Source of the DNA: Aphelocoma coerulescens
Taxonomy: Eukaryota > Chordata > Aves > Passeriformes > Corvidae
Assembly (NCBI RefSeq): GCF_041296385.1
Contig: NW_027184085.1
Span: 15,598,801-15,662,800 of the forward strand
Length of the DNA stretch: 64,000 nucleotides
Reading direction: 5' to 3'
Shown here one piece after another: positions 17,396 through 19,633 of the stretch (its first letter is position 1; every line of letters begins with the position of its first letter). The notes beneath the pieces are model-generated. The model searched no databases. It saw only the letters and a program-made list of their open reading frames with translations, and was not told the DNA's origin. A program made the position numbers and the translations under genes.

Positions 17396-17685
17396 TGTTG
17401 GGGTCTCCCCCCCTGCCATGGAGCCCTGGGAGATGGGCCCTGGGGGGGAGACACGGGGTTTCCCTGCCTCTGGTCAGCCTCGTTCCCCATTGGTTGGTTT
17501 GTGTTCCCCGGTGTGGGCAAGGACCCTTGGGTCCCGTGACTCGAGGAGTTCCTGAGCAGAGCCCCGGCCATGCGGCTGGAGAAATAAACATCTCTGAAAC
17601 ATCTACCAAGAATCTGTCCACATATGTTTCCTTTCCACGGGACTCCTGTTTGATATAGGCGTGTTACAGTATCCCTGCTGTAACA
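17396..17685 (+). mobile_element. 5' LTR of the cold-shock-domain retroelement (290 bp)
   Basis: Starts TGTTGGGG and ends TGTAACA. It contains an inverted CCAAT box (attgg near 17489) and an AATAAA signal at 17583-17588, and I see no TATA box. The 3' LTR at 19358-19633 matches throughout. By eye I count about 10 substitutions, one 15-bp gap and one 1-bp gap, about 3-4% substitution. A primer-binding-site-like sequence starting TGGTGGAGG follows at 17689, 3 bp after the LTR end. I could not match it to a specific tRNA. Confidence 0.9.
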
Positions 17686-17794
17686 AACTGGTGGAGGAAT
17701 GCGGGCACGACACCGATCCCTGAGGAAATTCGTGAGTAAAAAACCACTCTAGACCTCTCTCTTCTCATCTTGGTTTGGATATTCTCTCTGGACT

Positions 17795-18329
17795 ATGGAA
17801 GAATCGTGGGAAATGGGGCTCTCTGAGCCACAGAAAAAAATGTACCTAGAAGTAAAAGGAATCCTTGAACAACAAAAACAAAAAAGTAATACAACCGGGA
17901 GATCTAGAACACTTTTTTATCTGGCTTTTCAAAAGGTTCTCCTATATTTCTCGAGACTTACTTTTTGATATCGAACCTCCTGAATCTTGTGAGGGGTGTT
18001 TCTGGGACAAGATCTCGGATAAGGTAAGGGATCAAAGAGAAGCTTTCCGTGCATACCTTATAATCAGGGAAGCTCTTGAAGAGCATTTGTATGGTCCCAT
18101 TGCCCCTAAAGCAGAAGATCATACTTATTCCGTGGCTGAGGCTGCGCGGCCGCCATCCCAGGAGCGCGTGACTGCAGCCGTGCCGGTGGAGGTGCCTGTG
18201 CTGGATGCGCCCGGCCCCCTCGGGAGCGCGCGCCTTATCGCGGACCCCATCCCTGTCTCGGGGTCTCCGGCCACGGGGCCGCGAGTGAGGGAGCGACGCC
18301 GCAGGTGCCGCGGGTGCCGTGGGCCATGA
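17795..18329 (+). pseudogene. degraded Gag matrix-like reading frame
   Basis: An ATG at 17795 opens a frame that ends at a TGA near 17966. The same coding signal continues in the next frame from about 17865 to a TGA at 18327-18329. The switch falls near an A-rich run around 17871-17884, so a small indel is the likely cause. The pattern is an amphipathic helix start, then 'LEHFFIWLFKRF', then a Phe-Trp-Asp-Lys-Ile motif. That resembles the N-terminal matrix (p10-like) domain of betaretroviral Gag, which targets Gag to membranes. The second half drifts into Ala/Pro/Arg-rich sequence. No capsid or zinc-knuckle region follows. A good splice-donor match (AAG|GTAAGG) lies at 18023/18024. The matrix call is from pattern, not alignment. 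Confidence 0.5.
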
Positions 18330-18600
18330 GCAGCCAGGAACCGGGCATTGGCGTGGCAGGCCGCTCTGAGCGACCGGCTCGGAGAGCCCTGTGGAGGGAG
18401 AAGCAGCGGTTTCCACAGCGACATGAGAAGCCGTGCCGCGCCGAGCCGAAACGGGGCCGCTCTCAAAGCAGCGTGGAGTTTGTGGAGTGGAACCGTTCAC
18501 AGGCCACGGAGCCAGCGGCGATGGCAGCGTGGGGCTGCGCAGAGCCCAGAGACGCGCCGGAGCAGCGCCGCTCAGAGAGCGCAGAGCGGCCACAATGTGA

Positions 18601-19140
18601 GGCCCTGGCCAAGACCTTGGAGTCGGCGAGGCAGCAACCACGTGGGACAAGCAGCCACGACAAACATGCAAGCACGTGACAGGAGAAGTTCTAGCAACGA
18701 AAATCACAGGAACTGTGAAATGGTACAATGTAAAAAACAACTATGGATTTATAACACGAGTTGATACAAGGGAAGATTTATTCATCCATAGAACTTCCAT
18801 TAAAAGGAATAACCCTAAAAATTACCTGCAAAGTGTAGGAGATGGGGAAGTTGTTCAATTTGATATAGTGCAAGGAAAGAAGGGTGTACAAGCAGCGAAT
18901 GTTACTGGGCCTGGGGGTATTCCCGTCAAAGGCAGCCGTTATGCACAAAATTATAAACAATATCCATCCCAGCAACTTCCCTACTCACAACCTACTTTCC
19001 CCTTTTACCCTATACCCAATATGAACCCTTTCCTAAGTTTACCCTATCCCCAGTTTATTCCTAATCCGTTTTTCACCCCATGGCTTCCTTATACAATTCC
19101 ATTTCCCTACAACTCCTCTCTGATGCCGATGGGGGGATGA
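18601..19140 (+). CDS. Y-box-type cold-shock domain protein frame inside the LTR element
   Basis: The frame opens after a stop at 18598 and runs uninterrupted to the TGA at 19138-19140. The recognisable protein begins around a GTG at 18676 (154 codons from there), and no in-frame ATG precedes the domain. Counting from that GTG, residues about 6-76 form a cold-shock domain of the vertebrate YBX1/YBX2/YBX3 type. It shows 'GTVKWYNV' with Trp16, the RNP1-like 'NNYGFI' (21-26), the RNP2-like 'LFIH' (35-38), then 'SVGDGE' and 'AANVTGP', all diagnostic of Y-box proteins. The aromatic and His residues that stack on single-stranded nucleic acid are present. The tail is rich in Pro, Phe, Tyr and Asn and lacks the alternating basic/acidic blocks of host Y-box proteins. 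RNA or ssDNA binding is expected. Translation is uncertain because the start is missing: it may need splicing or fusion to the upstream Gag-like frame, which lies in another frame. It has no introns, which fits capture from an mRNA. Confidence 0.75.
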   Translation, partial: GPGQDLGVGEAATTWDKQPRQTCKHVTGEVLATKITGTVKWYNVKNNYGFITRVDTREDLFIHRTSIKRNNPKNYLQSVGDGEVVQFDIVQGKKGVQAANVTGPGGIPVKGSRYAQNYKQYPSQQLPYSQPTFPFYPIPNMNPFLSLPYPQFIPNPFFTPWLPYTIPFPYNSSLMPMGG

Positions 19141-19357
19141 AAAGGGGGAGGGAAGAAATTAAACCCTCTCCTGCCTCAGTTTCCCCACAAGCATGCCCAG
19201 AGAGTTCTGTCTCCCTTCTGTCAGCCCTAAGATGTTCCACAGAATCTGTTTGGACATTTAAAGACTCAGGAGGGTGGCTTGTTTTGTCTTGAAACTGTTC
19301 TTGTTATGTTTATCCAGTTGTCTTCATTCGCCTTTTATTAAAATAAAATGGGTGAGA
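19141..19357 (+). other. 3' leader region with purine tracts before the 3' LTR
   Basis: Starts with a strong purine run (aaagggggagggaagaaa) just after the stop codon. It ends with an A/G-rich stretch directly before the 3' LTR. One of these should be the polypurine tract priming plus-strand synthesis; the adjacent one fits by position though it contains several T residues. Confidence 0.5.
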
Positions 19358-19633
19358 TGTTGGGGTCTCCCCCCCTGCCATGGAGCCCTGGGAGATGGGC
19401 CCTGGGGGGGAGACATGGGGTTTCCCTGCCTCTGGTCAGCCTCGTTCCCCATTGGTTGGTTTGTGTTCCCCGGTGTGAGCAAGGACCCTCGTGTCCCGTG
19501 ACTCGAGGAGTTCCTGAGCAGAGCCCCGGCCATGAGGCTGGAGAAATAAACATCTCTGAAACATCTACCAATATTTCCTTTCCACGGGACTCCTGGTTTG
19601 ATATATGCATGTTACAGTATCCCCGATGTAACA
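19358..19633 (+). mobile_element. 3' LTR of the cold-shock-domain retroelement (276 bp)
   Basis: Same start (TGTTGGGG) and end (TGTAACA) as the 5' LTR, with the AATAAA signal retained. It lacks a 15-bp segment near 'ctaccaa' that the 5' copy has and carries one extra G, which accounts for the 14-bp length difference. The right copy of the target duplication (tgattc) follows at 19634-19639. Confidence 0.9.

Follow-up and report, generated by a model that had tools for sequence, protein, structure and literature searches.

Retroviral capture of host genes is best known from short-lived oncogenic viruses. Acute transforming retroviruses of the gag-onc type have picked up host coding sequence from spliced RNA and fused it in frame downstream of a 5' viral domain; their replicative genes are lost and propagation depends on a helper. 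VL30, ETn/MusD and the plant LARD and TRIM elements supply long terminal repeats (LTRs) and a leader in cis, have no enzymes, need a helper and mostly code for nothing of their own. Maize Bs1 is a non-autonomous LTR element of low copy number with pieces of captured host genes in a gag-type frame. We analysed a stretch of 64,000 nucleotides from the Florida scrub-jay Aphelocoma coerulescens (contig NW_027184085.1, positions 15,598,801 to 15,662,800; the window), in which positions 17396-19633 hold a decayed copy of a non-autonomous LTR element that is present in many copies and carries a Y-box-type cold-shock domain (CSD). The jay element likewise has LTRs and a leader in cis, no enzymes and a host coding sequence without introns behind a 5' domain. 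Unlike the acute transforming retroviruses it is a many-copy germline family with a cargo selected across diverged lineages; the cargo is an RNA-binding domain, and the domain ahead of it is Gag by position only. It also differs from VL30 and its like in having a selected protein, and from Bs1 in having many copies with one recognisable captured domain. In the jay family the captured RNA-binding domain, as substitution patterns indicate, has been kept under selection during vertical inheritance in many copies.

The literature search gave no description of the element. It covered parts of six papers on bird repeats (PMC6523648, PMC10542752, PMC8310711, PMC7341801, PMC7757076, PMC6497032), of two on packaging (PMC5035971, PMC5086612), of PMC11990775 and PMC4493011, and those passages of the Florida scrub-jay paper PMC11631490 that contain LTR and assembly terms; Repbase and Dfam lay outside its scope.

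The element family and its fusion protein

An earlier note, made from the letters of the window alone, had described two matching LTRs of 290 and 276 bp, an exact 6-bp duplication (tgattc) around them and an interior without pol or env. All of this was confirmed (positions in Table 1): the LTRs are identical at 265 of 275 aligned sites (10 differences; Kimura two-parameter distance, K2P, 0.037), and no pol or env family was found by Pfam in the four interior frames. The CSD frame, described as uninterrupted, is open and matches the Pfam CSD with an E value of 2.9e-22, its best solved relatives in the PDB being Y-box-binding protein 2 (E 5e-42) and YB-1, but its first ATG comes only at codon 141, behind the CSD. 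Since, in addition, the N-terminal frame is broken after 57 codons, the window copy must be regarded as decayed.

The jay assembly (1.33 Gb) was searched with the CSD, the LTR and the N-terminal domain (N-domain) of two lineages, B and C, which are described below. The best 40 of 886 first-look candidates were scored for the CSD (all 96-100% identical), the best 40 of 3805 for the LTR, and the best 150 of 1728 (lineage B) and of 2601 (lineage C) for the N-domain; these candidates are not confirmed copies, and the totals are no measure of the true copy number. Copies with both N-domain and CSD matches, repeat fetches of one element being dropped, form a set of 45. Window-like copies are over-represented in it, since 36 were taken from the top of the CSD search and 9 from the LTR search. 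Excluded were solo LTRs, L063, whose 5' part is missing, and the LTR-selected L074 (C35:5755000-5758300), a truncated or interrupted element in which the match stops in the linker and the fetched stretch has no CSD.

The order N-domain, linker, CSD is constant across the 45 copies, partly as a condition of entry into the set; an unbiased hint of the same order is that the CSD was present in all three copies fetched by the N-domain alone. Two copies depart from the plain structure: the linker of L003 holds an additional LTR, and the CSD of L070 contains an insert. An LTR pair was found in 39 copies; in the other six an LTR lay beyond the fetched stretch or was cut off at its edge. Exact 6-bp duplications stand at the LTR edges in 29 of the 39, and in 32 when one mismatch is allowed. 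A 5- or 6-bp duplication also marks 12 of 17 one-LTR loci without interior match as solo LTRs, although two pairs of loci are the same place recorded twice. The copy count proposed in the earlier note thus bears out its central claim of a non-autonomous LTR element with a Y-box CSD as its main coding cargo. That this is a retrovirus-like, non-autonomous corvid LTR family is close to certain, and with many copies in one genome, not one conserved locus, it is no domesticated single-copy host gene.

The earlier note had allowed for a CSD confined to one copy, or not bounded by LTRs elsewhere. A processed YBX pseudogene inserted by accident into a single endogenous retrovirus (ERV) would fit the window copy taken alone, but identical junctions recur in many LTR-bounded copies, in two lineages and in a Corvus fusion protein, and such an accident, hardly conceivable on these grounds, was ruled out.

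Class II (ERVK-like) retroviruses are marked by a 6-bp target-site duplication, as found here. We have not filed the element as ERVK, because its N-domain has no recognisable Gag matrix relative. The name MA, given to this domain in the earlier note, did not stand: it describes position only, as Pfam and PDB searches gave nothing usable, and a Gag matrix identity has no support from sequence comparison.

In other copies the N-domain and the CSD belong to one protein, which the earlier note missed, as it did the existence of diverged lineages. A single frame that runs from an ATG through the N-domain, a basic linker and the CSD to a Pro/Phe-rich tail was found in 12 of the 45 copies, with lengths of 435-473 codons. 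Assigned by whether the window's leader aligned, the copies fall into lineages A (window-like, 12 copies) and B (33 copies, among them L075, placed there for the sole reason that the fetched stretch does not include its 5' part). All 12 full frames are in lineage B. Among the matches listed in a search with a YBX exon peptide, 64 of the 148 rows besides YBX1 and YBX3 had frames of at least 420 (counted by eye; a script run over 147 of them gave 63), all 148 being taken as element copies with row identity not checked one by one. Likewise, 64 of the best 150 lineage B N-domain matches shared a frame length of 467 (by eye). All three fetched members of this class carry the CSD in a 442-codon frame, and the class must be very young, since the two copies compared had no LTR differences (over 275 and 242 bp). 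The family has spread recently. The median LTR K2P was 0.032 in lineage A (n=9) and 0.026 in lineage B (n=30).

The fusion is also present in databases. A 437-aa protein of A. coerulescens matches the element, and a 421-aa protein of Corvus moneduloides is the same fusion, with an N-domain and linker 67% identical and 76 of 85 CSD residues identical (manual count), its last residues being out of the tail frame. A second C. moneduloides protein contains the CSD, a Corvus hawaiiensis protein matches part of the N-domain, and short ENA contigs of unstated source also match. Annotators should be aware that some uncharacterised jay and crow entries in protein databases are copies of the element.

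Some matches lie in larger repeats. Three pairs of element matches on contig C3 (27065156/34120496, 27158031/34213371 and 29859552/36914892) are each 7,055,340 bp apart, and in the one pair compared (L026, L027) the flanks are identical, indicating a large duplicated block, perhaps a false scaffold duplication. Tandem arrays containing the element were seen at C35:8432457-8436660 (three N-domain matches spaced 1934 bp), C645:1239121-1274608 (three CSD matches spaced about 17.7 kb) and C90:107998-127795 (lineage C matches with a recurring step of 7973 bp). Contig C34, of 20.98 Mb, probably represents the largest scaffold of the W chromosome.

Lineages and selection on the captured domain

LTR and leader are common to the copies of lineage A. 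Lineage B has a different leader and LTRs about 79-88% identical to those of the window, together with a CSD 96-98%, a tail mostly 95-96% (83% in L101-L103) and a 3' stretch mostly 92-97% identical. Lineage C has a B-type leader and LTRs similar to those of B, but its protein is roughly 50-68% identical to that of B from CSD to tail, and only 38% in the N-domain. Both of these diverged lineages, B and C, contain young copies with open frames; L099 of lineage C, for example, has an LTR K2P of 0.007 and a stop-to-stop frame of 433 codons. In L006 (C5:24442333-24445792), a lineage B element is followed by one LTR and leader and then by a lineage C N-domain that is identical to that of L099 at 102 of 103 residues, so that a single LTR separates the two lineages. 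The similarity of LTRs and leaders across differing interiors implies that they have moved between interiors.

Between B and C the ratio of nonsynonymous to synonymous substitution rates (dN/dS) was 0.15 for the CSD (bootstrap 0.09-0.29, from three B and four C copies with some resamples empty) and 0.44 for the tail, with dS saturated at 1.59. The values for CSD, tail and N-domain were 0.40, 0.72 and 0.94 between A and B and 0.34, 0.46 and 0.62 within B. The sequence pairs behind all these ratios are not independent, and decay after insertion pulls them towards 1. Among changes present in at least four copies, the nonsynonymous to synonymous count in the CSD was 3:7, compared to 40:20 among singletons (p 0.038) and to 38:15 in the N-domain (p 0.025). 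The check across copies that the earlier note had proposed thus indicates that the CSD frame was under purifying selection while the family spread.

These figures bear on whether the CSD is a functionless passenger, captured once and copied along. A passenger would accord with a full frame in only 12 of 45 copies, with the likeness of young copies by descent alone and with the conservation of non-coding parts between A and B. It does not readily account for CSD ratios of 0.15 (B and C) and 0.40 (A and B) when the N-domain in these copies stands at 0.94, or for the excess of synonymous changes among the common ones, and is already disfavoured; we consider it very improbable.

The contact residues are also conserved. 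The residues of YB-1 that stack on nucleic acid are Phe24, Phe35 and His37 in the numbering of PMC4493011, and correspond to protein positions 74, 85 and 87 by the offset of this analysis; they are kept in 63/63, 62/63 and 61/63 copies, respectively. At the place of Glu71/121 all 62 aligned copies have Gln, as does a bacterial CspB according to the same paper.

Origin of the cold-shock domain

The CSD is of the type found in YBX1, YBX2 and YBX3, with the RNP (ribonucleoprotein) motifs present. The Y-box proteins continue into a C-terminal domain of alternating charged clusters (PMC4493011), in place of which the element, a mobile one, has a tail rich in Pro, Phe and Tyr. In the jay genome, YBX1 (contig C22) was matched by the exon peptide at 45 of 45 residues and YBX3 (contig C2) at 78%. 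Introns with AG and GT borders interrupt the CSD of jay YBX1. In the element the CSD is continuous, which shows that it was captured from spliced RNA.

All element CSDs form one clade (support 99/98), but the tree, which the earlier note had proposed for finding the donor, resolves only this clade and not the donor paralogue. In a protein search the element was 69% identical to several vertebrate YBX2 and YBX3 proteins over 55-59% of the query length. Lineage C DNA is 70% identical to jay YBX1 and in all 18 copies came closer to YBX1 than to YBX3; the peptide that follows the CSD, readable in 15 copies, gave the same result. YBX1 therefore appears the likeliest donor, and one old capture the simplest reading. 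Separate captures, from YBX1 in lineage C and from YBX3 in lineages A and B, could be suspected because the DNA of A and B lay slightly closer to YBX3 in 43 of 45 copies (one tie, one closer to YBX1). The margin is small, however (67.2 to 63.8; 73.7 to 69.4), the element CSDs are a single clade, the tail is common to all three lineages, and B and C have the leader and similar LTRs in common, so that two captures seem very improbable. YBX2, first suggested by common residues, was dropped as a donor once lineage C had been seen; no exon of YBX2 type was conspicuous among the matches listed.

Two JGI metagenome proteins, P0023 and P0025, have a Y-box-type CSD behind a stretch that by eye resembles a retroelement protease. 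Pfam recognised only the CSD in them, and the tree placed both outside the element clade; they possibly represent a second retroelement with a captured CSD.

Proposed mechanism and possible helper

We propose that LTRs, primer site and leader are the element's own contribution in cis, and that copying and integration would be carried out in trans by the enzymes of another element. Its single protein, with the N-domain in Gag position, the basic linker, the captured Y-box CSD and the Pro/Phe-rich tail, would be made from the full-length RNA and would bind that RNA through the CSD, standing in for the nucleocapsid. The fusion could thereby protect the RNA and steer it into the particles or the reverse-transcription complex of the helper, and copies coding for it would be favoured as a result. 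The host protein YB-1 is itself involved in the handling of retroviral RNA. RNA binding in the nucleocapsid's place would be the simplest use of the domain, since it explains why the CSD is fused, why it is constrained and why the lineages have it. Taken as a whole, a corvid LTR family mobilised in trans, with a fusion protein that packages its own RNA, is moderately probable and the best explanation we can offer. The RNA-binding and packaging step by itself has, on sequence evidence, about an even chance of being right. More tentative, and rather doubtful as yet, is the wider proposal that a host CSD replaced the nucleocapsid in packaging, and did so long enough ago that its use persists in two lineages which are only 38% identical in the N-domain and have both spread recently in a corvid.

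Several observations weigh against this proposal. The full frame is missing in 33 of 45 copies, including that of the window and all of lineage A, and the N-domain has no relatives beyond this family by Pfam, PDB or database search. The fold of the window's leader is nothing unusual (z 0.04 compared to shuffles). Part of the likeness between the A and B CSDs may be due to recombination, as these lineages resemble each other closely in the tail and the non-coding 3' stretch as well. Moreover, a helper related to the element in LTR, leader or N-domain did not come to light, one 1.4-kb ERV piece having been tested.

The fusion might instead act on the host, as a competitor or mimic of YBX1 that weakens the translational masking, the decay or the germline silencing of element transcripts. 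The domain does come from a host RNA-masking protein and has kept the main contact residues, and such action would likewise yield selection on the CSD. In-frame joining to a domain in Gag position in two lineages points to assembly rather than a free inhibitor, and a benefit acting in trans would be spread over all copies and harder to select, which makes action on the host unlikely.

The longest frames among the scored N-domain matches had 570 codons in lineage B and 475 in lineage C, in line with an element that has no enzymes of its own. The jay genome has integrase matches in open frames, the longest of 911 codons, so the enzymes may be at hand. One such ERV is a candidate helper. It has an integrase match in an 877-codon frame, and the 1.4 kb downstream (L104, C5:25679300-25680700) contains a 339-codon frame that looks envelope-like by eye; this piece, which probably does not reach the LTR of that ERV, gave no match of note to the LTR or leader of the element (best E 0.013). 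If the packaging role is true, a host Y-box domain can take the place of the nucleocapsid, and the family would provide a natural system for studying how a parasite without enzymes competes for its helper.

The features of the window copy are collected in Table 1. ATTGG was present in 99 of the 119 LTR stretches covering its place. A start similar to TGGTGGNG... or of the TGGTGGAG type follows the LTR in most listed copies, L040 being without it, and the splice-donor-like pattern was seen in 53 of 103 fetched loci, the remainder including many solo LTRs or short stretches.

Table 1 Features of the element copy in the window
Feature	Position	Strand	Remarks
Left target-site duplication tgattc	17390..17395	.	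6 bp, sequence
5' LTR	17396..17685	+	290 bp, TG...CA ends; similar solo LTRs, flanked by duplications, occur elsewhere
ATTGG (inverted CCAAT, Y-box site core) in 5' LTR	17489..17493	+	Lead only; CCAAT boxes are common
Primer-binding-site-like stretch TGGTGGAGG...	17689..17706	+	3 bases past 5' LTR; putative transfer RNA (tRNA) primer site
Splice-donor-like GTGAGTAAA in leader	17732..17740	+	Sequence pattern, putative
N-terminal domain at Gag-matrix position	17795..18139	+	ATG at 17795; conserved across copies
GC-rich stretch; Arg/Ala/Gly-rich basic linker where frame open	18140..18680	+	Copy comparison
Open frame holding the CSD	18601..19137	+	179 codons; stop 19138-19140
Y-box-type CSD	18706..18909	+	Pfam PF00313, frame residues 36-103
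Pro/Phe/Tyr-rich frame tail	18910..19137	+	Common to lineages A, B and C
3' untranslated stretch, ends at 3' LTR	19141..19357	+	Other copies mostly 92-97% identical
3' LTR	19358..19633	+	276 bp, TG...CA ends
Right target-site duplication tgattc	19634..19639	.	6 bp, sequence

In the whole window, no Rfam match and no tRNA genes were found, and a scan for bacterial promoters, a type of scan not meaningful for bird DNA, gave nothing. Away from the element, positions 32001-34000 form a GC-rich island (GC 0.61 compared to about 0.35-0.5 around it), perhaps a gene promoter, with short GC-rich tandem repeats inside it at 33192-33630. An impure tandem array of T/G-rich units around TTTTGGGG is located at 61060-61169.

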